Shown: positions 14,939 to 45,412 of the stretch, one piece after another
Position numbering within the stretch: position 1 is the stretch's first letter
Layout of the letters: each line of letters opens with the position of its first letter
NCBI GenBank assembly: GCA_000310025.1
Contig: FN649754.1
Location: forward strand, 329,788 to 385,159
Origin: Ectocarpus siliculosus
Lineage: Eukaryota > Sar > Phaeophyceae > Ectocarpales > Ectocarpaceae
Direction of reading: 5' to 3'
DNA length: 55,372 nucleotides
Program-made: the position numbers and the translations under genes
Notes under the pieces: generated by a model
What the model was told of the DNA's origin: nothing
Databases searched by the model: none
What the model saw: the letters and a program-made list of their open reading frames with translations, nothing else

Positions 14939-15572
14939 GCTGAGCTTGCCGTGTTGAGCTTGCTGCTGCCTGTTGTTGTGGCGTGGAATATTCCTGCTGC
15001 AGAAGGCGCCGATTCGGTTGGGACGGGCCAACGAGCAGAACATCAACAGGGAACCGACCACTCTCATCCGTAGCTGCGCAAGCAGACCTCTTCCTGGAAC
15101 ACAACCCGCGCTCGATAGCCCCAAAGCTGATGTGCTGTGTGAGTCACAGTAGTCCTACCTTTGTTTTGCAATATGCGGACCCCCCTCTCACGCCCTACGT
15201 GCTACTTGCGGCCTATCCCATCTGCGGGATAATTTGTTACCGCTCGGACGCGAAACGCCGCACAACGGAAAAAAATGCGGCCCAATCATGAATCAGTTCA
15301 TGTTGTTTGCGAAAAAGCGGGCGCTTCCCGACAGACATGCACGAAGAGAAGACGTCTCTTGCTTTCACACATCATTTTTTCCCCTAACCTCTCTCATTCT
15401 GTCCCTCTCTGTCCTCTCACCCCCGTGCTCCAGCCGAGATCAGAGTTCACCGGCCCATCTACTGACAGACCTCTTTCTCATCAACTGTCTCCTCGCTCGG
15501 GACCATCATCGGTCGCTCGTCGTGATCGGCTTCGCGCGGCGGGTCGCAAGGTCGCCGCGTGAGCGCCCGAGG
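14939..15572. promoter_or_regulatory. shared upstream region of two divergent genes
   Basis: These 634 bp separate the start codons of the thioesterase (minus) and the TALE homeobox gene (plus), so the two 5' flanks and leaders must share it. A pyrimidine-rich tract ending in CAG at about 15434 could be the acceptor of a 5'-UTR intron of the homeobox gene. I cannot point to a specific TATA or other core element. Confidence 0.45.
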
Positions 15573-18500
15573 ATGGATAGCGGGAGCGCGGCGAGCAGCT
15601 CGTCCTCCGGGGCAATGGTTCTTCCGTCTAAAGCCTCCTCCGGGGAGGGCGGCGGCACCGACAGCCCCGCCGCCGTCGCCAGCAGCAGCACCGCGAGCAA
15701 CAGCAGCAGCAGCGGCGTCATCGAAGCATCCCTCTGCGTCACCACGCGTGGCGCGCAAGAACAGCAGCGACAGCAAGGTCCCAGGAGAGTCTCATCGCCG
15801 ATCTTGTTTATGGGACACCAGCAACAACCCCTACCCTATCCGCCGGACGCCCAAGTACTCTCCTTCCCAGAACCATACCCCCACGATGACTCTGACCCGT
15901 TGTCCTTCTTCCTGTCCAGTGGCCGCGGCGACAGCGACCCTCTCGGGTTCGGCTTGGGGTCCGTCGCCGACGGCACCTTCGGTGGCCGCAAGGCTACCCC
16001 CGAAGAACTGATGCTCTTCAGGAGCCACCGCCTGCTCCAGGCGGAGGCCGTTGGAGTGGCCATTGGTCCGTTGCATCCCTCTGGCGGCGCCAACGCGGCG
16101 TACGTGCGCAAGCGCCTAGGCCTCGTCAGCACAGCCGTGGAGCGGCAGCTGAGGCTGAAGGTGCTCGAGCAGACCAACACGGCCGTGGAAGGGGTCCGCG
16201 CGCTCGGCGAGGGCGCGCCGCCGGCCCAGCAGCAGAGCGTCATCAACGCGGAGAGGCGCAACTGCCACCGCGTGCTCTCCGGTGTGCTCGATGAGGGCAC
16301 GGCGACGTTGAGGGAGCTCTCGACTACCGGCGGTGGAGGCCTGGGCGGCGTGAGCGTAGACATGGGCATGGGCATGGCATTCCCTCCGTCGGCGCTAGGG
16401 TCTCCCGCGACAGAATCGCAACAGGTGAGAGAGACGTTTTTCCCAGATTTGTTGTCTTGGGTTGCCTGTTGCAAGCATTCGTGCGAGTATCGTGATATCG
16501 TCTGCAGCTCGAGCTTCTTCGGTTGGCATGTCATGCCTACACCCTGCCTCGTATGCCCGGCTTGAGCGGGACAGCAGACTGGTGTGTGCAACGTCTCAAG
16601 CGCGGGTTTGTATTGTTTTGGCACGACACACACCACAGCTTCTCCCCACGCGCGACGCACAGCGAACACCGAGCTGAATTTGGACTTCGCGAACGCAGCG
16701 GTGGATTGACTCCGACATGTCCATCTTTGTCACGAGTTCGAACATTCGAACGGCAAAGCAGCTGTTGTCTTGTTTCTTTTCGGGGCTTTCTCAGCGAACT
16801 CCGCGTCGACATGCAGCGGTGATTGCAGAGGAGAGTGGACTCCCACTAGTCTAATCCGATATGAAAGGCTCGTATGTCGCTCGTTCGTGAGGGAAGCTAC
16901 AATTGCTGTTGGAAGACGTTTGTGCGAAGAAGAAAAGTCGGATATAATTCCTTCCAGCTGCTGCATACCCCATTTATCGAGATTCGCCTATGCGGAGGGT
17001 CGGCACACCGCACCGCCCGTGTGCGTGCAAATCCGTTGACTAGGTTATTCATCGGCAACGACCCGCTCACTGATGACACCTTCAGCTGTTGGGTAGCGCT
17101 ACCCCGCCTTCGTTCCATGCATGCTGTTCTAGTTCCGCACTTTCGTCCCGGCGAACATAGTCCCTCCACGCCAACCACTCAAGCATTAGCCCATCTGACC
17201 CCCCAAATCTCTTTGCTTTTGCTACCCCGTCGTGGTCGATCGATTGTTTGCAGCTGGCTTCTACCTGGGAAGACGCAGCAACTTCCTCGAGCATGAACAG
17301 CAGCAGCAGCAACTCAATTAGCTCGTCATGCCTCACGTCGATGCAGCTACAGCAGCAGCCACAGCGGCAACAGCAGCAGCAGCAGCAGCAGCAGTCGATC
17401 CTGCACCATATGCCTCCCGGTACGGGACGCTCCAGCGTGTTCGCCCTCACGCAGATGCGTGACCGCCCTCAAAACCACCACTCTCAGCTCGGGATGGCCC
17501 TCGGAAGCACCCGGATGGAAGGCGCGGGGGGCATGAAGCAGCAGGGCATGGGAGCCAGCTTTGGTTCTGGGGGCGGCGCGGTGGCACCACCTGGACACAA
17601 CCACGGAGGGCTTTCTGACCCCAGCGCGGGGTTCGGCGGCGACTCGTGGGGGGCGACGGGAGGGGGAGCCAGTGTTGATGGGGGCGGGGGCGGGAAGCGA
17701 GCGACGAGCAACGTCGGCAAGGTATGTAGGGGGGTACGGGGTTGTCGGCCCGAGTGTCTCATATATCTGGGAGAGATCGCCATCCAACCGCATGTTGCCA
17801 TGCCCTCTTCCACCGTGTGCGAGAGAGGAATGGAAGACAAAGCGCAAAACGCATGTTTTAAGTCGTGTTTGTTGACAGCGTGTCTGGACGCTCGTCTGCC
17901 GGCCGTGCCGTATTGACCGCATGATAAATATATTTACTGTCGATAACGGCCATTCTCCGATGATGTTGATCTGCCAATAGGACGGTGCTCTGCGCTTGGC
18001 CGTAGTAGATACGAAAACGTTCCCCATCCTTTATCCCGCCAATGTTGAAGTAGGGAATCCTTTCTCTTTGCCCCACAGTTCAGGGAGCCCCTAGTTGTGT
18101 CCAAACTTTCGCTCTGTCGCCAAGTCTAGGGTGCGCAAGGGTTAAACCTTGGCTATGAGCGGGACGACGTCGGATACAAAACTACACGACCGTATTTCTC
18201 ATCGTACTCAAGAAAACCGTCATTGGAGACATGAAGCATCGCCTTTCGTTCCCAGTACCCTCAAACGCTTTCTCTGTTAAGTATGTAAGCCCTCTTATCA
18301 TTACCTCTGTCGTGCTTTACGATCGATCCCCCCCACCCCTCTCAGCGGTGTTTTCACCCTCGCCCCTACCCCTAACGCGCAGGCCAAGAAGAGATCAGGG
18401 CTGCTGAAGAAGACACCTCCCTCCGACGCTCTGACAGACTCCCGCCGGCCGGTGTATAACAACCGCAAGGGCAGCCGCCACCGCCTCACCCCCCAGGCGA

Positions 18501-19342
18501 AGGAGATCTTGGAGGGATGGCTGGCCAACCACTGGCTGAATCCGTACCCCACAGAGGAACAGAAGCTCTACCTCGCTCAGAATTGCCACATCACCGTCAC
18601 GCAGGTTTGTTCGTTTTGCTCGTCCCGCCAACAATCAGAAACAACATCCGGTAGACCCGTACCACCTTGCAGAGGGAGAGGGATAGGGTCAGGGTTAGGC
18701 GGTACGTATCTTTATTCCACAGCGTTTCACAAGAAATCATATTCTGTGTACAGTGGCGGCTAAGAGAGGGTCGGGTCAAGCCAAAAACACGCTCTAAAGT
18801 CCGGTTTTATCATAAGACTGGTACCGTATACGCGGCACAGGCAAACAACTGGATGATGCGAGTCCGCACTTTCTCTAAGCAGTGAGATGGTGTACGGTAT
18901 CTCTTCAACCTTAAGTTAGCCGCTACTGTTCAGGTATACATATACACGGAACAGGTAAACGACTGGATGATGCGAGTCCGTACTTTCTCTTCAGCGATTT
19001 CCCTCCGAACGTAGCCGCTACCTCACCGTGAACGCGACACAGGTGAACAACTGGATGATGAACGTTCGCGTTCGTCGCTGCCGCACGAAGAAGATCGGCC
19101 TCGCCACTGGGCCCGAGGAAATCACCTACGCGGCCGCGGGCAAGGCCACCCCTAAGGCCCTCGCCGCGAACCGGGTGGTTGGCAGATCTTCTTCTTCTTC
19201 TGCCGCCGCCGCCGCCGCCCCCCCCGCCTCCTCTACCAAGCAGGGGGGAGGCGGCGGCGCCAGCGGGGTCGCGGCAGATGCGATGCCACTGTCGAAGAGG
19301 CGAGTGGCGCAGCAGCAGCAACAACAAACAAAGATGTTGTAA
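15573..19342 (+). CDS. TALE-class homeodomain transcription factor, four exons
   Basis: The exons 15573-16424, 17254-17721, 18383-18604 and 19043-19342 are all in phase 0 with clean GT-AG sites. They encode 613 aa. The start (gaggATGG, protein MDSGSAAS) was preferred over an upstream in-frame ATG because that would translate a pyrimidine-rich leader. The N-terminal ~440 residues are low-complexity (Ser, Gly, a Gln run) with a helical block around RKRLGLVSTAVERQLRLKVL. The homeodomain spans exons 3-4: RLTPQAKEILEGWL, then HWLNPYPTEEQK with the diagnostic PYP of the three-residue extension, then helix 3 VNNWMMNVRVRR. The usual TALE WFIN is WMMN here. A Ser/Ala/Pro/Gly- and Gln-rich tail follows. 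Brown algae have few TALE genes; ORO and SAM control the gametophyte-to-sporophyte switch. I cannot tell which paralogue this is. It is nuclear and DNA-binding by family. Confidence 0.92.
18841..18885 (+). other. duplicated homeobox recognition-helix exon, copy 1
   Basis: Just after an acceptor-like cggcacag, in the same phase as the true exon 4, the sequence reads ANNWMMRVRTFSKQ and then a TGA. It copies the first part of exon 4 with altered residues. If spliced to exon 3 it would give a homeodomain that ends in helix 3. It lies in the last intron of the TALE gene. Confidence 0.7.
18955..19014 (+). other. duplicated homeobox recognition-helix exon, copy 2
   Basis: After an acceptor-like cggaacag, this reads VNDWMMRVRTFSSAISLRT and then TAG, in the phase of exon 4. 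With copy 1 and the true exon (19043) it forms a series of about 90-115-bp tandem units that also share the spacer ttagccgcta / gtagccgcta. Confidence 0.7.
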
Positions 19343-22127: not shown

Positions 22128-25100
22128 TCACCAACGCGCCCTATCCCAGGCAACGACCCTTGCCACCATCGCGGGATTGAGGTTGAAGGAGTGGCGCAAC
22201 AGCATCAGCTTGTCTTCATCGAAGTCCTCGACCAAGAGGTCCGGCGCGAACCCCAAAACCCGCACGAAGGCCTCGTCGGACTCTTCGAAGCCCATTAGCC
22301 TCCTTGCTTCAGCCCTGAAGGAGGTGTTGGCGTCCGTCATGGACGCTTGGTCCCCGTCCGAGGACCGCTTGTCCGTCAGCATGTCGGAAAGGAATTTCGC
22401 TCCCTTTGTTTCGTACAAGTTGGCGAGGGTGCCCGTTTCCTTGCTCTTCTTCGCCACCGCAACGAGGCACGCCGTATGGAACGGCCTGCGAGGCATCACG
22501 GATCACCGGCGGGGAGGTTAGTAGGTGGCACATGGACAATTTAGTTGTGCCACGATAGAGAGCAATATAATAGTCGTAGAGGGCGGCTGGGAACCCGCAA
22601 GGAACTCTCAGACGAAACAGTGTCGTACTTCACCCGGTTGGTTACTGGGAGATGCCAATCAAGGTCAAAGGCCGTGGACAGGGTGCGCTGTCGCCGATGG
22701 ACCACCAAAACAGAGTTCCGTCGATGGTATACAGATCGCATGTCATAGGCAAGAGTTTCCGTGCCGACAAACAGGCCATCTGACAGAGGAACACCGCAGT
22801 TCTTGCCCCAAGCAACATGTTACTCACCAGAACTCCGAGAGAATGGTCCAACGAAGAAGCTTGCGGGCCCTATCGCGAGTGAACTTGAAGCCGTTGTTTT
22901 TGTCCGCTCTCCTCCGTGCTAGTGCGCGTTGGATGCTGTACCTGTGCTCAACGACAAACAGCAGCGGTAAACTTTCAAGCGCAGATCGAGGCGAATCGGA
23001 AGCTGGATCAGGGTCGAGGCTAGAACCACCATCGGAGGCAACCGGCCAACGGTTCGATGCCGCAAGACAAATACCCCCAACTCCTTCTCACTATTGACGT
23101 ACATGTTGTACACGCGCTTCGCCTTGCGAGGAGTTGGCGCGATGGCCTTGATCATATTCTCAAGCTCGCGTACTTCTTCGTCAGTTTGAACCCCGTAGTT
23201 GGACATCTGACGTTGCAGCGGGGGAGCCGCCGCTCCTGCAGAAGCGATGGGAGCGCGGCCTCCTCCATCTGAAGAGCAGGATGCTCCCACCCTAGTTGAA
23301 GTGCCAGCGTCATGGGTTTCTTTTTCTTCAGACTCCGCACCGGTTCCCCCGCTTCGCTGTTCAGAGCTTATGTGTGTCTGTCCTTTCTCAGAAGACTCGA
23401 TACCCTCCCTGCTGGGGGACGCATCGTGGTCTCCCTGTGAGAGCTTTCCTTCTCCAGGTTGGTCGGGGTTAACTGCGAGCAGCACGGAAACAATCACCAG
23501 ACCACGCGAGCGACGTTTGACCAGCCAGAAAAACAGCCTGGGCATTCAAAGAACGACGCAGAGCACGAGATACACTACTGTTGTGTGCCACGTACGGGCA
23601 ACATGTGGCCAAGTGCCTTCAGGCCGCGGTGGAGTTCGCAGTATCTCCTCTTCAAAAATCCAGGAAACGCTGCATATCTCAGTTTTCCAATGTCTAACTC
23701 CAGGTCTAAACTACCACCGCGAATTAACCGTCCGTTGACCCCCCATCGTGTACGATGTCAGTATCTGAGATTCTAGCCCTTGTGATACCCTACAGACTCG
23801 CTGTCCCCAATTTTCCAAAGGCTCCTTTCATCACCGAGATCGGTGAGCTACAAGCAGGAACTTTTGAAGCCCGATTTTGAAACGCTTCAAGCACCTTTGT
23901 GCATGGCTAGACCTATATATACATCACCCCAGGCAATTCAACCGACTATGGCGATGGTAGTTTCGTATTGGAGATGATAATTTTGGAAACTGAGATATGC
24001 GCGTTTCGTGGATTTTTGAAGAGCAGATACTGTTCGTGAGGTGGATTATGCCATCCTTACGAAGGCTACTGCGGTAGTACTCATGTGTGGTTTTGAGCTA
24101 TGCAGGTGCGCAAGTGCGTGACCGTCCATCGGTCATTTGGATCTTCGGGGTATCTCCGGTAGTAGGATCTTTGGCAAGTTGTCGCGCATTCCTTGCTGTC
24201 ATGTATTCCGAGTTCCGAATGCGTCTTGCGACTGTTGCTCGCGTGCCTCGGTGTTTGTGATGCACCTGAGTGCCCACTCTCTTCCGTTGCTTGTGTCTAC
24301 GAGGACGACCAATAAAACGACTTTACCATCTCTTCACATTGTCAAACGGGACAGCCGTGCTCATCCAGCAGCACTCGGCTTGGGGCCAATCAACACTCTA
24401 GAGTTCTTGTGGCGTTAACGTCATAGTCTAGTGCGGTATACACACATGTCTTCGAACGACTCTGTGAACTCTGGCGGGGGCGAGGCTGGCCCGACTCATG
24501 AGGAGCTTAGGACGGCCATCGACGACGCCGTGGGCGACGCCAGCACCAGAATGGAGAAGATGGTGACGGAGAAACTGGAAGGCATCATGAACACCTTGTC
24601 CCGGTTAGTGCCCGGGACACCGCCCGCCGGAAGTGCGACCGCAGCGGGCGGCGGGGGGGAGTCACAGGGGAGGACGCACGCCTTCCCTGGCGCGGGTCAG
24701 CTAGACCAAGCGCCGAATACTGGACGAGGGCTCGAGGGAGCGAGAGGACTGCGAGGCCCGGAACCACGAGAGCCTACACCACACGGTGCTATCTCGCGAG
24801 AGGGAATCAGCAGAGAGGAGCAAGCTTCACGGTATGCTTTCAGCTCGCATGCCCGTATCCCACGACTGAAACAGTTGGACTTCAACGGAGACGAGAAAAA
24901 CTGGCTGATGTTCCGAAACGATTTCATTACGCAGGTTCAGACTTGTGGGATGGGTCGCGCCTTGAGCGACAGCAGAGACATTGAGGTCCTAGGCGTAGAC
25001 GATGATGGCATGATAGAGCAAGGAGTGGAAGTAGGGGAGATAGCCATGTACCGGGATTTGTGGGGGATGCTGACCGGAGCGATATCCAACAACTCCACAA

Positions 25101-28100
25101 AAATGCTGGTGTACGATCGAAAGGGGCCCTCGGCAGCGTGGCGTGCGTTAGAAGAAACATTCACCCCCTTGACCGGCGGCGAGCAGATCTCGCTGATCGG
25201 AAAGTTTTATAATGCCCAACAAGGGAAGAACCAGGAACCCCGAGTGTTTTTTCCAGGAGTTCAAGTCCGTAGTGACTAACCTAGAGTTGGCATTCGACCA
25301 GCCCATCCCAAAAATGCTCGTGTATGCACGGTTCCTCGATGCGCTTTCCCCGGAATTTGAGATTCAAAAGCAACAGCTGCTCGCCCAGAAAACACTCGAT
25401 GAAGAAGAGATTTTGAGAGTGCTTCGAACACGGGCTGGGCAACTGAAAGCGGAGGAAAAGAAGGGGAAGAGTGATCGGCGAGCGAACCATCATGCGTTCG
25501 TAGCAGTAGAGGGGAAGGGGGGAGGAAAGAGACGTCCGAAACAAAACCGAGGTTACGAAGAGGCGAATTTAGCTAGCGACAAGAGAGTCAAGTGCTACAT
25601 CTGTGATGGTGGCCACTATGCGAGTGCATGCCCAGAGAAGCTTTGCCAGAGGTGCGGAAAAAAGGGGCACAACGCGAAAAACTGCCCATCGAGAACTGAA
25701 ACTGCAGTCGCCGCGATTGGAGGCGGTGGTGTCGAGTTGGACGTCGCATACGAAGCACTCTGATGTTGTCTAGTTCTGTTTTCCCAGCGGTGCATCAACG
25801 CCCGTTCGCTTTCGTGCCTTGCGTGCAATTCGGCTCGTCGGCATTCCCCCATAAAGAGCCGATTTTGATGATACGACTGACGAAAGTACAAAGGGGAATT
25901 TTTTCTGGCCTGTTACTTTTCCGCCGTTCGCTCGTTGTTTTTTTCTTGTGTGTTCGATCGGGATACGAACGCAGTCCACGAAACTCGATGTTGCCTGTCC
26001 GGTATACCATGCGCATCTCAGTAACTAACCGCGTAGGTTGAGCCATGATGAGGCTTATTGCACGATGAAATACTGAGGATGGTGTGGCATTCCGTTGTCG
26101 TCTCACTTTGAGGAATGGTGATCCGCAGGGCACTGCGGTCACACCAATTTGATTGATGATGTTCGGAATTATTTCCTGGTGTCTACAGTTTCACCGGGAT
26201 ATTTTGCCTGAAATCAGGGAGGGCTGATGAATGACGCCTTTTTTCGTGATAGATGGCTACCAGCGTCTCTCATATTAGCAGGTACCAGCAGGCTGGTTGA
26301 TGAACTGTTTATGATTGATATGCTGCTTCGATCGTCCTCTGATGTGTAGGCTGAGAGGGGGCACCCTCCCCTAACATGTGGTTGATTGCCCTTTTTTTAT
26401 GATCTTTCATTGATGTACAGACCGAGGGGGGCACCTCTCACTGTCATGTGATAGACAATGGTGATCGGGGTTGGTTGTAGACGCGCCCCGTTGCTAACAG
26501 CAGCTGGATACAGCAGTAGGGATCCTGTTGCTGGGAGGGAGTTACTTGTGAAGGAGTAGCGAAAAATGTCTAGGTCCAGTGTCTCTCGAAGCGGGGTACC
26601 GTTGTGGTTGAGATACTGCTTGATCTTCCTCTTGGTTGATCGCCCTCTATAAAAATGTCATTTAGCGATGTAGCGTTAGGTTTTACGTTTTTCCGCTGCA
26701 ATTTGGCATTGGTGCTTGTGGCCTTAGGCGCGCCGCGGTGCCGACAGCAACTCGATACAGTAGGGATCATGTTGGCTGGGAGGGGACTACTTGAAAAGGG
26801 GTAGTACAAATGCCTGACAGTTGTAGACGTGTAGGTTTGCAACTTTGTGACTGCTGTGTTGATTGTGTTGACAGTTCAATCAGCAGGATGACCCGTGGGG
26901 GCGGAGGGTTTTGATCCGGTGGCCGGGTTTCCCTTCGTTTGTTTTATTTTTGTTTCCTTTTGGAGTTTTCTATGAGTACCCTGAGCGCTTTGGTTTTGAG
27001 AGCATTCGTTATGATGTACAGAATCAGGGAGGGTGTTCGTGAGGTGGATTATGCCATCCTTACGAAGGCTACTGCGGTAGTACTCATGTGTGGTTTTGAG
27101 CTATGCAGGTGCGCAAGTGCGTGACCGTCCATCGGTCATTTGGATCTTCGGGGTATCTCCGGTAGTAGGATCTTTGGCAAGTTGTCGCGCATTCCTTGCT
27201 GTCATGTATTCCGAGTTCCGAATGCGTCTTGCGACTGTTGCTCGCGTGCCTCGGTGTTTGTGATGCACCTGAGTGCCCACTCTCTTCCGTTGCTTGTGTC
27301 TACGAGGACGACCAATAAAACGACTTTACCATCTCTTCACATTGTCAAACGGGACAGCCGTGCTCATCCAGCAGCACTCGGCTTGGGGCCAATCAACAGA
27401 TACCACGAACTCCACCACGGCCTTAAGGCGAATGCCCCCCGAAGTACATATAACTGCTCCGGGCGTGGTACTGTGCCTGACGAGAGTAGTATGATACACG
27501 AAAAGGGTGCGCCGAGCGTTCTGTAAGCTACTTCGACACATAAGGTGGCAAGGAAACGTCGTTGAAAAGCGCCCAGACTCCATCCCCACCATCCGTTCTC
27601 ACTCCTACCTTCGACTACCCGCACATTGCTGTCAGCCCTCCGGGTTTCTGACCGTTTTTTTTCGTTGCTTTGGTCCTTAAGCCAGCTACGCAGCAGAGAC
27701 AGGCGCTCTGCCTCTGTTCCGGACGGGATACAGAATGGCCAGTGGATGATCTTGTCCAAGTACTCCGCACCAGACACCTTGGACGTCAGAGTGCGTCGCA
27801 GCGGGAACGGTGGAGAGTAAAACCTTGGCCAGCACCGGATCTACACGTGACGCTACCCGCTCTCTACAATAGACCACGCCATGAGCCACACCTTCGTAGT
27901 AGATTTGGAAGCAGTTTCCTGGAGGTTGAGCTATACAGTGAATCAATCGGATGTCGAAATTCATCGACGCCATACCTCGGCAGCCAAACAATGCACAGAT
28001 TGCCGAGACTTCCTTCTGAAGCGCTTTACGTTTGAGATGCGCTCTTCGTGGAACACATCAACTCGCCAACGGAGCGCCAGTGTTCAGTCCACCTGGAGGA

Positions 28101-31100
28101 AAAAATGCATTGCTGAATATGTAATCTCACCTCTTTGCGTATGCCCTCCCCCATGTCTTGTTCGATCGCCGCAATAATCACGCGGGGGTCCAACGCCAAC
28201 ATGACTGCAACGTTTACCTGGCATCAGTTACACAGCAACACCAAATGCGCTCGTTTGGGCTTGTTGCATCGCTTGGTTAAGTGTTAAGAATCATCTGCTG
28301 GGAACAAACCAATCGTGCCATGGATGTTGTAGCTGGCAGTGGTGCTATCCTCAACGATTGTCTGCACATGCGCACCTGCGCTCATCCACACCCGCAACAC
28401 AGAAGTCTCACATTATCTTTTTCGAGGAGCAGATGCACCGCTTCGAGCACTTTGACGATCTGGCGGTGCGGGCATCGATCCAAATTATCGATGCTAACAA
28501 CTAGCATGTATCTGTCCTCCTTGGTGCTCTTTTGTTCCAGCATGCCGAGAAGCACCTTGGGCAGACAAACGCGGACGAAAAGACGAGAAAGTGATCGAGG
28601 CGGGAGCAGACCTACCGTAAGCGGACCGCCTTCAGACGTGCAGCCAAGGATTTCGGCGCGATCGCACCGAATGGCTTGTACACCCGGTCGTGGCGACAGT
28701 TTGCTCCGATACATTGTGGGAATTTCGTAGATGGTGTCATGTCCCCCCCTGTCCCCTTGATCAAGGTATGAGTTACCCGCACCCCAAGTGATAGGCGGCG
28801 AGAGCACACACCTCTAGTTCGTCTCGGACATCGGCCATGAAACCTAGGTGGGCGATCCCCACGCTCTCGTCTCCCATTGACTGCGCCTCTTCAACGATGA
28901 GCTCCCCCTGACCTTTGAACACCACAGGAAGAACCTGCGGTCGCGCAGAGTTTCGATAATATGCAGTTGGCAATATAGCAGAGTGTGGGACAGAATGCGG
29001 GGCCGTGTGACAACACGAATATGCAAAAGTCGCCGATAAAGGTCACGCCCGAAACACGTGTTGCTCGATGCGGCAACTCCGTCCAAGAGCTCTCCAGCAA
29101 ATAGAACCTAACCACTCCAAGGAGCACCTTGAAAATCCACAGCAGGAGAGAGATCGGCACCGCTGCCAGCCCTGCAGTGGCCACCACCTGCTCCAGCACT
29201 TCCTGCATGTTTGCAATCTGTTCGGCGGCCAACTTCGCAGCCGCAACGACGCCAGCCACGATAACTGCGGTAAATATCACAAGGCACCAGTCTGAGCACG
29301 TGGACGATGTCACCGCATGGCGTACTCGGGTTGCTCGCACAGCACCCTTCCCGAAGCATGGGTGCTCTTCAACCTGTCAAAATTCGCACATCGACATAAT
29401 AGGTAGCATCATCGGGAGAGGGCGTGACCATCAGTACGTACGTGTCCCCCTTACCCTGCGAGCGGCAATGTTCTATGTCAAGGGAGCGTCACCACTAGAG
29501 GGGTCGCTTCTTCCTTGCACCCTTGTTATCCGCACAGCGAAAAGCGAATCAGAGATCCCAGCGCCGCTTACACACGAAGCACGTTAGGGTTTCATCATCA
29601 ACCCACCTGATGAAATATTTCGCTGATGAGGACCGCCCACAGAACCTTGGAGTCTGCGAACAGCCACGCGTCGAAGGACGCAACAACACTCGTCACACGA
29701 GCAGGCTGGTCCGCAGAAGTTGACCCAAGGCCGTCCTCCACGTCGTTGACTCGATCGTCGCGTGCAGGAGAACGGCAGCAGCGACAGGAGACCGCACTCG
29801 CCAGGCCCGCCCACAACGCGTAGACCACGGATCCTCCGGTGGTCGTCCACAGCCATCGTATGAACCACCACTCCGGTGACGGTGTCGGTGCGGACTTGAG
29901 TTTATCAATAATTTGTTGAAGCAGAGAGGACTGGTAGACGCAGGCAAGGGCGGGTCTTATCGATTAAACCATGGAGATGCCACCGGGAGGATACCATTCA
30001 ACGATCACATGGCAACAAAATGAAAAACAACAAGCAGATGCCGTTGCTATGACCCTCAGCGGGATATCTCCAACACGTTGCCAGGCAAGCCCACTTTGAC
30101 ACAATCTCCCTTTTCCTATGCTATGCCGACAGTTCACCGTCGGGTATGCCGTGAAATCCTACAAGGCTTCGTGTTTGTTAGTTGAGCTCCGCCATAGGAG
30201 GATCACAACTGAGGCCTACATGACGCCATCGCACCACGTGGCGATAACAAGGATATTTCGGCAAGTGAGTTCGAATGATTTCCGAAACATGCAGTTTGTT
30301 GTTGTACCGTCCTTTTCATTTGTCCTCGTCGTGTAGTTAGTTAGAACCGGATCTTGTACACGGAACCAAACATGTGCCTCTGATCCAAAGCTGTTGTCCA
30401 CTAACCGCTCGTTGGGGTCGCCAAAGCAGTTTTCCTATCTCTACCACGTGCCTGCCTTGATACTTGGCGTGTATGATCAGCGCACCTTACCCTTAACTAC
30501 GCTCTCGTGCTTCCGCGCCAGAAGAAAAAGGAGCAACTGCGGTACCCACGCCTTTCCCCTGACCACTGGGGCGCTGAGGCCGGCAGGAGGGACAAAGCAA
30601 AGGCCGACACGCGTTGTAAGAGTCTGTGTGATCGGGGCAGTTCGTGCACCCGCGCCTACCTTGCCAGCGCCCCACTGAGCGTACACGCCGACGCCGACCG
30701 GCCACGCCGCGGGGTCAGTCATGCGCTCCACCAGCACGTCCGCGTAGTCGCCGAACTCCAGACAGTCGGGTCCTTCCGACGAGACCGGAGCTTCTAGCAG
30801 AACGCCTTGGTGATCCTTTGTGGGGAACGGCCTTGAGGATCCTGCGCAACCGTGAAATACGTCATCTGTGTCTGCTGCGGTACGTCCGAGGTAGGCACTG
30901 CTGCAGCAGCCCTGGTTCCAAGAGCTGGTTGCCTCTGCAGTCAATCAGCAGCGTTCTCTAACAACGGGTAGGTTACGGTCGATGTCAGCGCTTTTGTCAG
31001 GCCTCTATCCCCATGGCACAAGTTGGGGCTGCGATAGGAGTGAACATTGATAACTCCACGCCGACTAGAAACACCAGGCACACCCCAGTGAAGCAACACG

Positions 31101-34100
31101 CGCAACAGGAAAGAAGCGTACTCTCGCCATGGGAGGTTCGGAGGCGTTGGCAATCAGTGCTGCGAAAACTCCAAAAATCCTGCCAAGAAGGAGAAATAGA
31201 CCACCCAGCTCAAGCATGGAGGTAGCTTTGGCGCACCCTGCTAACTCTATTGTCCAATCCCATGGCTATCCCTTGCAACATATCCCGACATTATCTTTGG
31301 CGTTGGTGCCTTCCCCCAACTCTACCTTCCAAGTCTGGCACGACGTTTCGGTAGGCAGGTGCGGACGCCAAGTCCCCGCCGAGGTCCTCGCGGTGCATCC
31401 ACTTGTAAAATTCAGTTCTGGGATACTGTGCGCCCTGGGGAACTGAAATGGGCATGTGGACGGAAGAACCAGCCATGCTCTACGTTAGTTGCGTAGGAAC
31501 ATGGTCGTACTGCCGAAACATGACACACAACTCTTGTTGACAAGGGGGCCTTCGACGCTGGTTACTTCTGTACATGGGGCATACAATATTGTTGTATCCT
31601 TGCCATGCAAACAACTCCAACGACGACCTCTGCTAGGGAAGGTGTTGTCCGCGTTTCTATATCGATGGAATCACAGAATCGGCTATATCCGGCAAGGTTT
31701 TCAAACATGTATCTACAACTGGCACACATTTCTGCCAGGCAACGGCAGCGACGCAACTGGCCTAGTAGAGACACCCTTCTCTCCCGGCAGTTGGGCAAAA
31801 CCACGCCATAACCCTCACGTGAAAGCCCGATGTTGCCGCCAACTTCGAACGCCGTGAGGTTTTTCATCTTGGTCACGTGCAAAGGGATGGACCCTGTTTC
31901 GGAAATGGGAACGGTCCATTGAGCGACGCGTACAATGTGAAAATAAATTCATTTCCGTACACGCCTATCTCGCCAACGGCGGTTGTTTGGCGGGATTATC
32001 GAAAAGCCAGAATGCAGGCCTCCTCCATTCCTCATGAGCTGGGAATATTGCTACCCTGGAAACCCTTCGGGACAATGGGGCTACTGGTGAGTGATCGGAA
32101 AGAGAATGGATTTCACGAAAAGAGTCTTGGACAGATGCCCAAACTGATCTCCACAGAACTTGTCCCCCCCATTCATGACCCCAACATGTTTCACGTCCAC
32201 GAACGTGTTGTCCAATTTGCTTTGGCTCGTAGGGCATAACATTCTCTAGGGTAGGCGGGCTTGATGGTCTAGAAGGCTCGTTTTGGTCAATGATTTGGTC
32301 CTAAGTTTTCGTTTAGCCTCTGGGATCATTCCAGGGGTGGTGGCAGCTCTCAGGAAAAGCAGGAGACCCTGTTTCTGTAACAACACAAAAAAGAACCCTC
32401 GGACCAATGTTGAGTTAGGCCATGCCGATACGTGCACCGGCAGGACACATTTTCTCGAGCCGAAATCTCGGCGAAACTTTTGCTGTAGACTGAATCCTCG
32501 ACATGCTCATGCTCATGAGCTTGCCGCAGGGTCCATACCGCCGGTGTTTGCACCTCGTTTCTCTTACAATTCTGCAGCTCGGCAGCACCAGGCTGGAAGA
32601 TGTGTAGCATCTCAATTTTTCGGTTTCCTTCTCAGAGTGGAGGATCCGCAGGACATGAGTTAGTTTTACTGTAAAGACAGCAGCCTTTTCCCTCGGGGAT
32701 GAGCATAGATAACATCCTAGCCTCTCACACATACCTGTAAGCATGTTGTCGCCCACCGAAAGTTCCTGCAGCTTGGAGAGAGCTCCCAGCTCCTCGGGGA
32801 TGGGCCCTGTACAATTATCCACAGCAGCAAAAACCGGGAGGAGGAAGATGCACGATCAGTCCCTACGGCTCCTGGAACATGCGTCCTGCTAACACGGAAC
32901 ATGTTCTCTAGAAGCAGCAGTCTCTTCACGGGGTAGGTAGTCCTCGCGTCGCTCACACACCTGTAAGGCTGTTCTTGCTCAGCGAAAGCACCTTCAGCTT
33001 GGAGAGGTCTCCCAGCTCCTTGGGTATTGGACCTGGATAAAGCCGCACAGTCCAACAAACAACCAAAACATCGTGTCATTTGGAGAGGTCTCCCAGCTCC
33101 TTGGGTGTTGGACCTGGATGAAGCAGCACAGTCCAACAAACAACCAAAACATCGTGTCATGACGCTTCGAGGAGGCTTCGAGAACAGTGGTCCTGCCGAC
33201 GCGTGGGCGAGTCTTCCTCTAGAACATGCTCTGAATAGGAACATACGTAGATAGGGCGCAATTTTGCTTCGAATTGCTCTCTGCAGGTCACACCCGGCCC
33301 CAGCTAGGCCATCTGATCGCCTTGGAGATTGTCGACCACTGCCATACCATGCTGAACGGTGAGTGCGTGATTTTTTGTCGGTAATGCTATTTAGCGTTAC
33401 CCTTGTTTTCGTTCTTGTGATTCGACTTTGTAGAGAAAACGGAAACACCATGCATGAATCCCGCCTACGCATACATGGGATTTGTTCACAACAACATACC
33501 TGTTAGTCGGTTTCGTGAGAGGGTGAGCCGCTCCAGGGCAGCAAGGCGTCCCAGCTGCGGCGGGATCGGTCCTGCACGGGGAAGAGCAAATGCAGAAAGT
33601 TTTCACCGGGGCATCTTGAAACTTTTTCTGTCAGGCTCTTCTTGCGCAGCTACTCACCCACTTATCGGAGGGATTCAACCTGAAACCTGAGCATAGTCGC
33701 TCACCGGTTAGGTCGCTTCCATCAAGTGCGAGGGATGTCAACGCCGACATGTCTCCCAGCTGCGGCGGGATCGGTCCTGCGAGCGGAAGAAAGAGCATAT
33801 ACATTTATTGCAGGGAACGACAAGTCATTCCCTGACTTCTGGAACACACTCACCCACGCGTTTGCAAGACCATTGTTAAAGGCCCAATGGTGATGTTCTT
33901 ATTTTTGTACATTTTTTGAGTTGTACTGAAATGTTCAGGCCCCATCCCGAGGCACTGGGAGCCCTCTCTGCGATGAAGGAACTTTCGCTCGGCTACAACA
34001 AGATCACAAGTATGTGAGAGGCGAGGATTACAATAACGCTTATCCCTCACGTCCCCGTCAGCTGGACACATCTTTCAGAATAATCAAGACTATTGTCCTG

Positions 34101-35854
34101 CGATTTGTCCGGCCGTGTTGCTTGATCGAGACCTATGCCGGAGGCGCTGGGAGATCTCAGCAAGCTACACGAGCTTTCCCTGGCCTGCAATGAGGCGTGG
34201 ATGGTCATCCTACCCTACTTGTAAACAGTGCTCCGCGGTGTTCGACCAGCCTACTTGTCAAAGCTTGCGCAGGGCCCATCCTGAAAGTAGACAAAACAAT
34301 TTCCGTGCAACTCACCACTCAGCTGGTTGCCCCATAGATTTATTGTCACCATCTGTGAAAGTTTCCCCAGCTCCGGCGGGATGGGGCCTGAGGCAACGGA
34401 AGTGCAGATACGACTGTAGTGGGGAACAAACCAAATCTCCGGCTTCTAGAAGTACTACCACCTACGTGTATGCGAGGAGACGTACGGAACCCGGCGGAAC
34501 CACGTTCGCCAAGCAGGGCACGCAGCATACGACACATTGGACAAAATAGATGCGTCTTGCCTGTGAGCTGGTTTGCGACGAGGTCAAGCGACTCCATCTT
34601 GCTGAGATTCCCGAGCGCCTTGGGAATAGGTCCTGCGCAAGAACAACGAATAAAAATAGCAAGGGTTTACAGATAGCTTTGGAAATGGTCCTGCCTACAG
34701 TATGCATTGGTGAGGCCCAACGCAAAATTGTTGCTCCAGAGTTCTTATTTTACCCCTGCTTGTTTTATGCCAGAGGCACTCACCGGTCAGGTTGTTTTCC
34801 GCAAGAGTAAGCCCTCTTAGGTTGCCAAGCCGTCCTAGCGAAGCAGGAATTTCGCCTGCATGACGTTCGAAATGACCATGAAAAATGTGGTATATATAGC
34901 TTTCTCACGCGGTATCAAGAATGTGTGTCCAAAAGCATCGGCAGGATTCATCCTGATTTTTTCACCGGGTGACTCACCGATTAGCGTGTTTCCTTTAAGG
35001 TAGAGGCCAGTCATTGCAACGAGGTCTCCTATCTCCGGCGGGATGGGACCTGCAAGCAGAAACAAAAATACAAATACTTCATGGGGAACAAGAAAAAGAC
35101 TCCGAAATCTAGAACGTACGTGAGCCATGTCTTGTTCCTAGAAGGTACGGGGACATACGTCTTGAATCCAACGCATCAAGTCTTCCAAAATCGAGAATTG
35201 ATATTAAGAATTTTTGTTCCTTCCATTAACCTGTCAATCACTCCACGTTTATCGACTCGGTTACACACTTGGGTGAGAAAAGCGACACATTGGATACATG
35301 TCAGCAAATCAACCTACACTAAGCCTACCGGGTCGGTACGGAACGGCTTCGCAATCGAGAACGCTCCAGCACATGCTTACGACGAAAAACGCGTCCCAGC
35401 CATGCAAAACACGCGATACCGGAGGTCCTCTGCTTACCACAAACACCACAAACGAAAAATGGTGTGGTTTACAGGTGGCGCGCCATGTTCAGGTGCCGTT
35501 TAGCTTTCACTAGTACAAAGCACCGTACGCACGGAGTGCTCGTACAGTCTCGACTCACGGCGTGCAGAGCGCAGGAAGGTACGCGAAACGAAAGATAGTT
35601 TCTCACCCTGTTGTAAACTCGCAATAATGGCAAGGCAAGACAGCAGCACGCCTTCATGGACTAAACCGGAATACTGTACCTCGGAGGTTGTTGTAGCCCA
35701 GACTAAGGTCCACAACACGGCCCTGGTCGTTGACTTTGACCCCGTGCCATAGCGACAGATTGGATTCCGTGCTCCAGTTATCGTTGTTCTTCCAGCTTGT
35801 TCCATTGGTCGCGACATATAGGACAACCAGAGCCGCACGGTCCGTCTGCGCCAT
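22128..35854 (-). CDS. LRR - transmembrane - KAP P-loop NTPase, putative receptor
   Basis: Start codon 35854, stop 22128. Exon 1 (35854-35680) encodes the LRR N-cap (TDRAALVVLYVATNGTSW ... DLSLGYNNLRG). Eight 72-nt LRR exons start at 35049, 34855, 34632, 34387, 33776, 33571, 33032 and 32806, and a 75-nt one at 31893; all split a codon after base 1. Exons 31442-31326 and 31237-31122 (hydrophobic segment) continue in phase. KAP part: exon ending 30660 (Walker A GVYAQWGAGK, Ser from the next exon), 29930-29607, 29373 to about 29061 (two hydrophobic segments), 28934-28812, 28555-28412 (Walker B MLVVSIDNLDRCP), 28217-28131 (LALDPRVIIAAIEQ), 27777-27609, 23472-23103 (PRKAKRVYNMY), 22941-22828, 22485-22128. 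From 29930 on every resolved junction fits. The junction into the Walker A exon is the weak point, so two genes remain possible. KAP proteins (Kidins220, PifA) are membrane-linked signalling NTPases; a sensor role is inferred. Confidence 0.82.
24031..24395 (+). repeat. 5' LTR
   Basis: The 365-bp direct terminal repeat starts TGTTCGTG and ends CAACA, preceded by GATAC. It contains an aataaaacgac segment near 24312 that could serve in 3'-end formation. Confidence 0.93.
24446..25763 (+). pseudogene. gag of the LTR element, interrupted by a +1 frameshift
   Basis: The frame opens MSSNDSVNSGGGEAGP. A Gly/Pro-rich part is followed by a UBN2-like copia Gag core (LKQLDFNGDEKNWLMFRNDF; AAWRALEETFTPLTGGEQ) up to about 25250. 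A run of six T there throws the frame off, and it stops at 25279. The overlapping +1 frame (to 25763) continues the same core (EFKSVVTNLELAFDQP; ARFLDALSPEFEIQKQQLL). It ends with two zinc knuckles: CYICDGGHYASAC, one residue short of the canonical spacing, and canonical CQRCGKKGHNAKNC. The break may be real decay, a ribosomal slip site or a homopolymer error. The product would package element RNA in virus-like particles. Confidence 0.85.
25764..27033 (+). other. non-coding 3' half of the LTR element
   Basis: No long frame is present. An imperfect internal duplication (about 26490-26570 and 26727-26810) shares acagtagggatc, ggctgggagggg/gctgggaggg and ttacttg. It may carry cis signals for trans-mobilisation. 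Confidence 0.5.
27034..27398 (+). repeat. 3' LTR
   Basis: This is the second 365-bp copy of the 24031-24395 repeat. It is preceded by the purine tract and followed by the GATAC target duplication at 27399-27403. Confidence 0.93.
32018..32086 (+). pseudogene. decayed LRR exon on the opposite strand
   Basis: On the plus strand an acceptor (aatgcag) is followed by a stretch reading like an LRR (SIPHELGILL, then LETLRDNGATG in another frame), ending at a GTGAGTG donor. It is 69 nt, not 72, and is frameshifted. It lies in an intron of the minus-strand LRR-KAP gene. Confidence 0.6.
33079..33160 (-). repeat. partial tandem duplication of an LRR exon end
   Basis: About 80 bp at 33079-33160 repeats 33002-33078 nearly exactly (tctcccagctccttggg and caaacaaccaaaacatcgtg). 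It copies the acceptor side and first third of the LRR exon 33032-32961 plus adjoining intron, giving an incomplete exon. Confidence 0.8.
33287..33358 (+). other. 72-nt LRR cassette exon on the opposite strand
   Basis: Exactly 72 nt lie between a ctgcag acceptor and a GTGAGTG donor on the plus strand, in the same codon phase as the functional exons. It is open throughout (RPQLGHLIALEIVDHC, HTMLN). The conserved G-x-I-P and L-x-L-x-x-N positions are partly lost, so it looks like an inverted copy under decay or an antisense exon. Confidence 0.7.
33939..34009 (+). pseudogene. decayed LRR exon on the opposite strand
   Basis: An acceptor (atgttcag) and a GTATGTG donor enclose 71 nt encoding PEALGALSAMKELSLGYNKI on the plus strand. 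One base is missing near the I-P codons, so the 72-nt phase is broken. Confidence 0.75.
34130..34203 (+). pseudogene. decayed LRR exon with lost acceptor, opposite strand
   Basis: It encodes PMPEALGDLSKLHELSLACN on the plus strand and is close in sequence to the minus-strand exon starting at 34632. The expected acceptor CAG reads CGA here and the donor is poor, so it is unlikely to be spliced. Confidence 0.75.
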
Positions 35855-38106: not shown

Positions 38107-39439
38107 GGGGAAATGGACACAAGTGGGTATACCCACCCCTTTCTCGGACAAAAGTGGGTACTCAGAAATCCAGCTCGCGCGAGCTCCATAGGCGAGCCCC
38201 AAACGCGCCTCAAAACCCAATTCTGACACCTGAACAACATAGCCAGGGGCCATACACAGCACGGGCATCATTTTTTTCCGACTTTCAGGCACACCTTTGG
38301 CCCAAATACCGCCGCGGGGCCCAACCAAGGCCTCAACAGAGTGCCCACTTTTGTCCGACATCCAGGTGGGTATACCCAGCGACTTGTACTCATTTTTTCA
38401 TGTGCCCACTTATGTCTATTTTTCGACCCACTTTTGTCCGAATTGTACCCACTTTTGTCCACTTCCGGACATCGGACAATCGACCTCCACGTCACCGCAC
38501 GGCAGGACATCGAATAGCCTCGGAACGTCTCAGAACTCCGCAACACCGTATCCATGGCATCTCTTGTACCAATGGATACCGACGGCGAAGGAAGCGTTGC
38601 ACCCACACTCATGGCGCCGCAAGCAACTGACAGAGGTGCCCCCGCACTTGGCCCTGCGCGGGCGCCCAGCAGGGCAAACTGCCTCGACATGCTGCCCTCA
38701 AGAGTCGGCGCACTCGGCGTGTGGTGGTGGTGTGTGTGGGGCTTTGCATCTGTCTGTGCTGTTCTCTGTTGTTCCGTCTCTTGTTCTTCTGTATGCACGA
38801 TCCGTTGGTTTCGGCGTGTCCGTTATGTGTCAAACATTTGTGGCGTGCCGAGAGCGCTGCTTGCCGGACATCTTCCCGTGCCGTGCGGTTGCCGTTGGAG
38901 ACCGAATGGGGTCTGGCATGTTCTGAAATGTTCTTTCGCGGAGGAGTCGGTCCGGTTATTTGCTTGGAAAAGATGCGATGGAACCAAAGATGCCATGGAT
39001 ACGGTGTTGCGGAGTTCTGAGACGTTCCGAGGCTATTCGATTATCTGCCGTGCGGTGACGTGGAGGTCGATTGTCCGATGTCCGGAAGTGGACAAAAGTG
39101 GGTACAATTCGGACAAAAGTGGGTCGAAAAATAGACATAAGTGGGCACATGAAAAAATGAGTGGAAGCCGCTGGGTATACCCACCAGGATGTCGGACAAA
39201 AGTGGGCACTCTGTTGAGGCCTTGGGCCCCGCGGCGGTATTTGGGCCAAAGGTGTGCCTGAAAGTCGGAAAAAATTTATGTCCGTGCTGTGTATGGCCCC
39301 TGGCTATGTTGTTCAGGTGTCAGAATTGGGTTTTGAGGCGTGTTTGGGGCTCGCCTATGGAGCTCGCGCGAGCTGGATTTCTGAGTACCCACTTTTGTCC
39401 GAGAAAGGGGTGGGTATACCCACTTGTGTCCATTTCCCC
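38107..39439. mobile_element. element with ~450-bp inverted terminal repeats
   Basis: The left arm 38107-38563 and right arm 38988-39439 are near-perfect inverted copies with a few indels. Each arm holds several copies of cccacttttgtcc in both directions, and a palindromic gggtataccc. The 424-bp centre has an open frame starting at 38554 (MASLVPMDTDGEGSV). It reads like the first exon of a gene followed by intron-like sequence, not like a transposase. No clear target duplication was found, as the flanks are A- and C-rich runs. It could be a deletion derivative of a DNA transposon, or a foldback element that captured a gene fragment. Confidence 0.75.
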
Positions 39440-43620: not shown

Positions 43621-43625
43621 GCCTC

Positions 43626-43978
43626 TATTAGATATATTGGGGGTACTCGTAGCATAGTATGACGGTTGAGATGTCCGGTACGTACGTACGAAAGTAACAG
43701 TGATGAGATGCGGAGGGATAGGAACTTTCTACATATATTCCTTGGTTGCGAGAGGTATTTGGTGGAGATTCAGAGAGATTCGTTGAGTGACAAAGAGTGA
43801 AGGCGTGCCCAGATACCGTGAAGGTTTGACGAGCACTGGCACGCCCCCGATGAATACAATACTTTCCAATACTTTTGCATTACGTTTTCAACACGTTTCC
43901 TACCCATCCACGCTCCGCCATGAGCCACCCGCTTTGAGCTCCAACCACAAAGAACCGAGCCACCCGAATTATCGATCA
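43626..43978 (+). repeat. left LTR
   Basis: 353-bp terminal repeat, preceded by GCCTC. It contains the palindrome ggtacgtacgtac near 43678. Confidence 0.9.
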
Positions 43979-44039
43979 CGCTAGCGTATGACACGTCGTC
44001 TACGAGATTCGCGGTCGAGCTTGGTTTAGGAGCATCGCT

Positions 44040-44465
44040 TTGCGGCGATCAAGAGCAGGGTCACGATGGCCACCAGGCGCGAAGATGAATCCCGCCCAGC
44101 AGCGGAAGCCCGCCAAGCAGCGGAGGACGCCAGGATCGAAGAACTGGTCAATCAACGAGAGAGTAGCAGCTCGGATGGAGCAGCAGCTGATGGAGGAGAA
44201 ACTGGCCAAGAAGATGGCCGAGATGGAGGTACGGCATCGAGCCGAGCGGCAGAGATCAGAAGATCTCCGGCGAGGAAATGAGGAACAAGAGGCACCACAC
44301 CAGCAAGAACCTGGGGGCCCAACACCCAACCCTTCCGCAGACGATCTGGCCGACGCGATTGCGACTGCCATGGCCGGTCGCCTCCAGACTTCATCAGGGG
44401 ATATCGGTGCAGTGCCTCACCCTGCAACTCTCCGTATGACTGAAAGTAGACGAATTGAGCTTTGA
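44040..44465 (+). CDS. Gag-like coiled-coil frame of the TRIM-like element
   Basis: This frame encodes a charged helix (RVAARMEQQLMEEKLAKKMA, then EMEVRHRAERQRSEDLRRG) and then a Pro-rich part and DDLADAIATAMAGR. The overlapping frame from 44066 reads AAEARQAAEDARIEELVNQ over the first third, also coiled-coil-like. The two may be one ancestral frame broken by a shift near 44160. There is no zinc knuckle. A Gag N-terminal remnant is possible but not shown. Confidence 0.5.
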   Translation: MRRSRAGSRWPPGAKMNPAQQRKPAKQRRTPGSKNWSINERVAARMEQQLMEEKLAKKMAEMEVRHRAERQRSEDLRRGNEEQEAPHQQEPGGPTPNPSADDLADAIATAMAGRLQTSSGDIGAVPHPATLRMTESRRIEL

Positions 44466-44890
44466 GAATTTTCTGCCCGCCAACCAGCGGAAGCCCGCCA
44501 AGTAGCGGAGGATATTGGTTTTTGTTGTTTAGAGAATTTTCTGCCTGCCAAGCAGCGGAAGCCCGCCAAGTAGCGGAGGATATTGGTTTTTGTTGTTTAG
44601 AGAATTTTCTGCCTGCCAAGCAGCGGAAGCCCGCCAAGTAGCGGAGGATATTGGTTTTTGTTTGTTTTGAGAATTTTCTGCCCGCCAAGCAGCGGAAGCC
44701 CGCCAAGTAGCGGAGGATATTGGTTTTTGTTTGTTTTGAGAATTTTCTGCCCGCCAAGCAGCGGAAGCCCGCCAAGTAGCGGAGGATATTGGTTTCTGTT
44801 TGTTTTGAGAATTTTCTGCCCGCCCAGCAGCGGAAGCCCGCCAAGCAGCGGAGGACACCAGGCGCGAAGATATTGGTTTTTGTTTGTTTT
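44465..44890. repeat. minisatellite, ~67-69-bp units, six copies
   Basis: Units start with gagaattttctgcc at about 44465, 44532, 44599, 44668, 44737 and 44806. A last partial start lies at 44890. Each contains cagcggaagcccgccaag and then gcggaggatattgg. The same core stands in the reading frame at 44092-44130, and the last unit also carries caccaggcgcgaaga from 44079-44093. Confidence 0.9.
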
Positions 44891-45059
44891 GAGAATTTTC
44901 TTGATTGTTTTGGAGAGATGGTAAAGAGGAATTTGGTTTGATGGTTTGTTTTGTTTTGAAGTAAGCAGGACTGCTGACAAGGCGTGCCTTCGTGGTACGG
45001 TCGACTACGGGTCATTTTGGTTTTTCTCGGAGCATGACGATGCATACGAGTAGGGGGGC

Positions 45060-45412
45060 TATTAGATATATTGGGGGTACTCGTAGCATAGTATGACGGT
45101 TGAGATGTCCGGTACGTACGTACGAAAGTAACAGTGATGAGATGCGGAGGGATAGGAACTTTCTACATATATTCCTTGGTTGCGAGAGGTATTTGGTGGA
45201 GATTCAGAGAGATTCGTTGAGTGACAAAGAGTGAAGGCGTGCCCAGATACCGTGAAGGTTTGACGAGCACTGGCACGCCCCCGATGAATACAATACTTTC
45301 CAATACTTTTGCATTACGTTTTCAACACGTTTCCTACCCATCCACGCTCCGCCATGAGCCACCCGCTTTGAGCTCCAACCACAAAGAACCGAGCCACCCG
45401 AATTATCGATCA
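45060..45412 (+). repeat. right LTR
   Basis: Second copy of the 353-bp repeat, followed by the GCCTC target duplication. Confidence 0.9.

Follow-up and report, generated by a model that had tools for sequence, protein, structure and literature searches.

In animals, Kidins220/ARMS is described as a protein whose ankyrin repeats precede a KAP domain that crosses the membrane four times (PMC4632323). In bacteria, KAP nucleoside triphosphatases (NTPases) are reported to substitute for STAND NTPases in conflict systems (PMC8195603; PMC10907252). Tmn, which is a KAP NTPase and has two transmembrane domains, inhibits several phages (PMC11846954), and the anti-phage system qatABCD includes a KAP protein, QatA (PMC12424860). 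Here, we describe a gene from the brown alga Ectocarpus siliculosus in which leucine-rich repeats (LRRs) are joined to a KAP NTPase. The gene lies on the minus strand of a 55,372-nucleotide stretch of contig FN649754.1 (assembly GCA_000310025.1, positions 329,788 to 385,159), referred to below as the window, and all coordinates are those of this window. Sequence comparison strongly supports one gene encoding a 1019-residue LRR-KAP protein, with a family of such proteins in several brown algae. LRR-KAP is a real and recurrent domain architecture that is apparently undescribed. A preliminary description of the window knew of no report of it, and no paper on it was among those listed from the literature searched, most subscription papers lying outside its reach. 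Within this literature, no paper combined Ectocarpus with the KAP family, those combining it with the word “KAP” concern other subjects by their titles and abstracts, and the whole word is absent from the main text of Kaur et al. 2020 (PMC7159879).

In-frame joining of exons on the minus strand gives a gene of 21 exons that runs from an ATG at 35854 to a stop at 22128. All 20 exon junctions are in phase and all 20 acceptors are AG, while the donors are GT in 19 cases and GC in one, at exon 4. Nine LRR exons come first and the KAP exons follow. The arrangement given in the preliminary description, with LRR and then KAP exons on one strand, in matching phases and between one start and one stop codon, is therefore confirmed with exactly the same span. 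Another in-frame ATG is present upstream of 35854; the predicted homologues P0001 and P0083 begin at the ATG at 35854. The base composition of the gene span is ordinary, and a scan of the whole window returned no Rfam family at gathering score.

That the two halves belong to a single gene, as was first proposed, is strongly supported by a full-length orthologue, by the recurrence of the pairing and by the absence of an ATG ahead of exon 12. The orthologue, P0001 from Ectocarpus sp. 12 AP-2014, spans the whole protein, with 955 of 1019 residues identical (seven regions summed) and 39 of the 40 linker residues unchanged. LRRs and KAP are found together in P0002 and P0004 (Scytosiphon promiscuus), P0003 (EukProt) and P0005 (Ectocarpus sp. 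8), and a KAP profile search added P0082 (Laminaria digitata, partial), P0083 (Ectocarpus sp. 8, partial) and P0087 (Ascophyllum nodosum), which brings the number to at least eight among the best 120 of 236 profile matches. Proteins of this type are therefore present in brown algae other than Ectocarpus, namely in Scytosiphon, Laminaria and Ascophyllum. All eight homologues are predicted proteins, which leaves a small chance of one gene-caller error common to them, and some are incomplete; P0003 begins inside the LRRs, the C-terminus of KAP is missing from P0004, and the models of P0082, P0083 and P0087 break off inside the KAP part. The linker encoded by exon 11 carries an F-x-x-W-M core that is found in 6/8 homologues and missing from P0082 and P0083, the models of which skip this exon. 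The same two models also lack the stretch next to Walker A with which exon 13 begins; both gaps may reflect alternative splicing or the same gene-caller mistake in each. Ahead of exon 12 (30841-30660), no in-frame ATG is found over the 35 codons back to a stop, and the first Met of the exon is residue 355, already within the KAP match. Exon 11 itself has no stop; one follows after 11 codons when the frame is read on beyond its donor. In the more distant relatives P0084 and P0085, KAP stands alone.

Pfam places KAP_NTPase (PF07693) at residues 346-868 of the joined protein (E 4.9e-35, 121.6 bits against a cut-off of 20, profile positions 3-290 of 293) and also matches five LRR families, one of these under its cut-off, so that both domain calls of the preliminary description are upheld by profiles. 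At E 0.001, no match to ROC or COR, to NACHT or NB-ARC, or to SAM or ankyrin was found in the protein. Walker A is canonical (YAQWGAGKS, residues 368-376, fitting GxxxxGK[ST]). Walker B reads VVSIDNLDR (around residues 629-633), with its first Asp retained and its second replaced by Asn. This DN is common to all seven brown-algal sequences that span the site, the window included (P0083 and P0087 end before it and were left out), which suggests that the change is old; the 183 other relatives have DD in 170 cases, DN in 12 and DG in one. PADLOC profiles for QatA (E 1.1e-17) and PifA (E 3.9e-11) match P0001 in separate stretches, each partially. Across the scanned proteins, P0001 and others, QatA, PifA and PDC-S20 match in part, P0084 being without PDC-S20, and the Tmn profile is not among the PADLOC matches. 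No solved structure matched the KAP part by sequence, and the structure-search matches were filled by plant LRRs, which makes them uninformative on whether the PDB holds a KAP fold.

The product had been called a membrane-spanning KAP NTPase, and both hydropathy and a predicted model back this. Two strong hydrophobic segments are predicted at residues 513-531 and 546-564 (mean hydropathy 2.47 and 2.23), both in exon 14, and the P0001 model shows two long helices at 517-543 and 548-579, with low confidence at 538-569. A weaker segment ahead of this pair is above the hydropathy threshold in P0002, P0003, P0004 and P0006 and below it in the window protein, where no segment exceeds the threshold before residue 504. 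Judged by hydropathy, there is no hydrophobic leader in the window protein or in P0001, P0002, P0004 and P0005, which have a full N-terminus. Because neither a leader nor a membrane segment precedes Walker A, the LRRs should be cytosolic, and since Walker A and B flank the hydrophobic pair, with an even number of crossings, they should lie on one side. We infer that the LRR solenoid and the P-loop core are both cytosolic and that the hairpin anchors the protein in the membrane. The term “receptor region” used in the preliminary description has to be corrected, no hydrophobic segment lying between the LRRs and Walker A; with cytosolic LRRs the protein would be no cell-surface receptor. The “hydrophobic exon” placed between LRR and KAP has to be abandoned, as this open stretch at ~31.2-31.07 kb is intronic, between exons 11 and 12. 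It is hydrophobic in one frame, it meets a stop within about ten codons (by eye) when joined in phase to exon 11, and it is absent from the homologues with the linker (P0001-P0005, P0087), in which the linker runs straight into exon-12 sequence.

Regarding the LRR half, exons 2-9 measure 72 nucleotides (nt) and exon 10 measures 75 nt, all with phase 1-1. LRR-ROCO exons have been termed phase 2, their codons starting at nucleotide 3 (Teng et al. 2024, PMC11378527), and this is taken to be the same frame. According to the same source, most of the non-ROCO sequences with shuffling LRR exons hold LRRs only. For P0001, a plant-type LRR fold is predicted. In intron 5, at 33916-34191 on the plus strand, two LRR exon-like sequences lie in antisense, which may point to an inversion in the course of exon shuffling. 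Extra residues (KTHLF...) are present in P0001 and P0083 at the exon 4 border, where the window has its GC donor, and are probably a gene-caller artefact.

Searches of the own genome with the linker-KAP protein of the window and with the KAP part of P0005 gave 11 and 7 matches, respectively, all at this locus. Since the search works exon by exon and scores the best candidates only, the gene is single-copy at that sensitivity, at which no gene of the P0005 type, known in Ectocarpus sp. 8, was found either. A search with P0006 gave matches confined to its tetratricopeptide repeat (TPR) part. The PF07693 family search of the genome gave no match; the probable reason is that the KAP sequence is spread across ten exons, each of them low-scoring. 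In the KAP tree (113 of 193 sequences kept, 295 columns), the six LRR-KAP sequences were joined with a support of 1.0. A viral origin gained no support in viral contigs, where 287 stretches matched a pattern and none was confirmed as a relative. Among predicted viral structures, the best Foldseek match of the P0003 model was an environmental Megaviridae KAP protein (E 4.6e-9), though at a root-mean-square deviation of 18.9 and a TM-score of 0.41 by target length.

Our preferred guess at the function, which we put forward tentatively, is a membrane-anchored intracellular LRR sensor with a KAP nucleotide switch and a role in immunity or non-self recognition. Such a sensor would be built differently from the immune receptors known in animals and plants, which pair LRRs with NACHT or NB-ARC NTPases. 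The LRRs would bind an intracellular protein or peptide, either pathogen-derived or altered self, and this binding would release or promote nucleotide binding by KAP. The nucleotide-bound form would then assemble at the membrane and either signal or disturb the membrane in its vicinity. With Asn in place of Asp in Walker B, hydrolysis would tend to be slow, which would suit a switch worked by binding better than a fast motor. The notion of ligand-sensing repeats driving an NTPase, already voiced in the preliminary description, is a fair hypothesis. Perhaps, though this is more doubtful, LRR-KAP proteins make up a class of brown-algal innate immune receptors beside LRR-ROCO and NB-ARC-TPR, which would be membrane-anchored and intracellular and would combine exon-shuffled LRRs with a KAP of the phage-defence type; the loss of the second acidic residue of Walker B would make it a one-shot nucleotide-binding switch.

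Several observations weigh against these proposals. The window gene, like its homologues, is a prediction, and the P0001 model is of modest confidence (overall predicted local distance difference test score, pLDDT, 69; predicted TM-score, pTM, 0.49; part of the hairpin low). A single KAP locus was found, while immune receptor families are often expanded. P0086, a metagenome protein of 361 residues that is 45% identical to P0001, has KAP and no LRR match, so that, if this model is complete, not every close relative has the pairing. In the KAP tree, the LRR-KAP sequences were grouped with P0007, P0084 and P0085 at a support of 0.235, which leaves the origin of the brown-algal KAP without a placement. 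Moreover, the concave face of the LRRs, compared in the window, P0001 and P0083, does not change significantly faster than other free positions (10/45 vs 7/63, p 0.18, the free control positions being counted by hand and the test picked after the data were seen); an excess over a control with structural residues (10/45 vs 11/171, p 0.0035) was discarded, such residues being an unfair control. Finally, according to one study, qatABCD defence could largely do without QatA (PMC12424860).

Among the other explanations, the one that survives best is a Kidins220-like housekeeping or developmental scaffold, in which the LRRs would recruit partners and KAP would cluster membrane receptors or channels, with no immune role; we regard it as a genuine possibility, albeit not one to be expected. 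Kidins220 itself is described with repeats and then a four-pass KAP domain (PMC4632323), and its sequence, P0007, is the sole named animal protein among the matches listed. The Walker B of P0007 (DGLDS) also departs from DD, and the low copy number and occurrence in several brown algae would fit a scaffold. It agrees less well with the missing SAM or ankyrin match, with the relatedness of the LRR cassette to the one in candidate immune receptors and with the pace of change between two orthologues from Ectocarpus, which in the LRRs is about twice that in the KAP core, the window differing from P0001 at 19/217 positions in LRR residues 59-275 and at 17/412 in KAP residues 316-727 (p 0.03, in rate tests picked after the data were seen). 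On balance, an immune role seems to us somewhat more likely than a scaffold.

It is improbable that the protein is an effector NTPase resembling Tmn or PifA, whose activation, triggered by the LRRs, would cause membrane damage and the death of the infected cell. Tmn offers a two-transmembrane KAP NTPase that inhibits several phages, the window protein has two strong hydrophobic segments, and the PifA and QatA profiles match P0001. Yet the Pfam KAP match is stronger than these matches, which are partial and do not include Tmn, and the accessible text on Tmn calls its mechanism unexplored (PMC11846954).

Still less probable, indeed hardly to be expected, is a decaying gene whose function has been abolished by the Walker B change and by a 3.4-kb long terminal repeat (LTR) element, which lies in the 4136-nt intron 18-19 in the opposite orientation to the gene. 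The insertion is probably recent, since the LTRs are identical, and D-to-N may appear as damage; however, the exons on either side of the element stay conserved, the frame is intact across 1019 codons, the C-terminal residues beyond the insert match P0001 at 174/179, and the DN is shared by every brown-algal sequence covering the site. Two adjacent genes, LRR and KAP, wrongly fused by gene callers, scarcely deserve consideration, for although there is additional open sequence within intron 11-12 and every homologue is a predicted protein, an Ectocarpus protein matches throughout, the same join with a common linker core recurs in several brown algae, exon 12 has no preceding in-frame ATG, and exon 11 is open up to its donor, with read-through ending after 11 codons.

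Table 1. Exons of the LRR-KAP gene and the LTR element lying within it (window coordinates).
Feature	Position	Strand	Basis
Exon 1: start codon and LRR N-terminal cap; N-terminus as in P0001 and P0083	35680..35854	-	exon joining, alignment
Exon 2: LRR, 72 nt, phase 1-1	34978..35049	-	exon joining
Exon 3: LRR, 72 nt	34784..34855	-	exon joining
Exon 4: LRR, 72 nt, GC donor	34561..34632	-	exon joining
Exon 5: LRR, 72 nt	34316..34387	-	exon joining
Exon 6: LRR, 72 nt	33705..33776	-	exon joining
Exon 7: LRR, 72 nt	33500..33571	-	exon joining
Exon 8: LRR, 72 nt; an adjoining 81-nt tandem duplication copies its acceptor and 5' part	32961..33032	-	
Exon 9: LRR, 72 nt	32735..32806	-	exon joining
Exon 10: final LRR, 75 nt	31819..31893	-	exon joining
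Exon 11: linker, F-x-x-W-M core, 117 nt, phase 1-1	31326..31442	-	exon joining, homologue alignment
Exon 12: start of KAP up to the Walker A lysine (WGAGK)	30660..30841	-	exon joining, Pfam
Exon 13: KAP, Walker A serine, weaker hydrophobic segment (residues ~400-425), Cys-rich stretch, FDAW motif	29607..29930	-	
Exon 14: KAP, two predicted transmembrane helices	29128..29373	-	hydropathy, P0001 model
Exon 15: KAP	28812..28934	-	exon joining
Exon 16: KAP, Walker B (IDNLDR)	28412..28555	-	exon joining, motif count
Exon 17: KAP	28131..28217	-	exon joining
Exon 18: KAP, EYLDKIIHWPF motif	27609..27777	-	exon joining
Exon 19: acidic/serine-rich linker (low confidence in the P0001 model) and TPRKAKR motif	23103..23472	-	
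Exon 20: C-terminal part common to KAP relatives	22828..22941	-	exon joining, homologue alignment
Exon 21: C-terminal domain and stop	22128..22485	-	exon joining
LTR element: identical LTRs of 365 nt, 5-nt target duplication (by eye)	24031..27398	+	

The plus strand of the LTR element holds two open reading frames (ORFs), 25197-25763 with weak zinc-knuckle matches below the Pfam cut-offs and 24419-25279 with none, and inverted repeat arms are found beside the element at 23615-23670, 24001-24032 and 27398-27429. Elsewhere in the window, a homeobox exon (Homeobox_KN, PF05920, E 9.8e-11), which from its family we take to be of the TALE type, lies at 18281-18763 on the plus strand and is possibly joined with the ORF at 15153-16565 of the same strand, in which Pfam found no match. 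The TALE homeobox class includes ORO and SAM, which regulate the Ectocarpus life cycle. A tandem array with a 114-nt period occupies 47601-49040, and its minus strand encodes EsV-1-7 cysteine-rich motifs (PF19114), matched in two ORFs at E 1.3e-57 and 2.2e-68. A second identical direct-repeat pair, of 354 nt and ~1.4 kb apart, is found at 43625-45412 with a tandem array of 68-69 nt between its copies and is perhaps a short LTR element. A long inverted repeat at 38107-39439 is made up of two pairs of arms, one of 218 nt and the other of 247 nt, which adjoin each other and are 96-98% complementary.

Brown-algal immune receptors are so far candidates, and a cassette of LRRs related to theirs sits here on another type of NTPase. 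The LRR-KAP pairing spans genera of the Ectocarpales, Laminariales and Fucales, namely Ectocarpus, Scytosiphon, Laminaria and Ascophyllum. KAP NTPases serve bacteria against phages and animals in Kidins220. Brown-algal multicellularity evolved apart from plants and animals, and the LRR-KAP proteins of these algae would allow a direct test of whether a third multicellular lineage uses KAP as a sensor switch.

Compared with the KAP family (PF07693), the window protein has a near-full profile match, the WGAGKS motif, a hydrophobic pair between Walker A and B, and motifs of the YLDKI and TPRK types; it differs in its N-terminal plant-type LRRs, in DN for the usual DD and in a long low-complexity insert ahead of the C-terminal part. 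Brown-algal LRR-ROCO genes share with it one LRR per 72-nt exon and a related N-terminal cap exon, although they carry a ROC-COR GTPase where the window gene has a KAP NTPase. Tmn, PifA and QatA have the KAP domain in common with it, and Tmn likewise has two transmembrane domains (PMC11846954); unlike here, the accessible text of the sources mentions no LRR for them, and the host of the window gene is eukaryotic and its function putative. P0006, from a EukProt transcriptome, is also a repeat solenoid with KAP, 37% identical over 284 core columns and with an alignable C-terminal extension, but it has TPRs in place of LRRs and DD in Walker B. Since P0006 joins TPRs to a related KAP, this domain may be combined with different repeat sensors. 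Kidins220/ARMS, the nearest precedent, which the preliminary description did not name, resembles the window protein in a repeat solenoid ahead of a membrane KAP domain (PMC4632323), P0007 being 29% identical across 177 core columns, and differs in having ankyrin repeats rather than LRRs, a SAM domain in its C-terminal part, and four membrane segments against two strong ones preceded by a weaker one. With this precedent, a repeat solenoid joined to KAP is not new as a principle.
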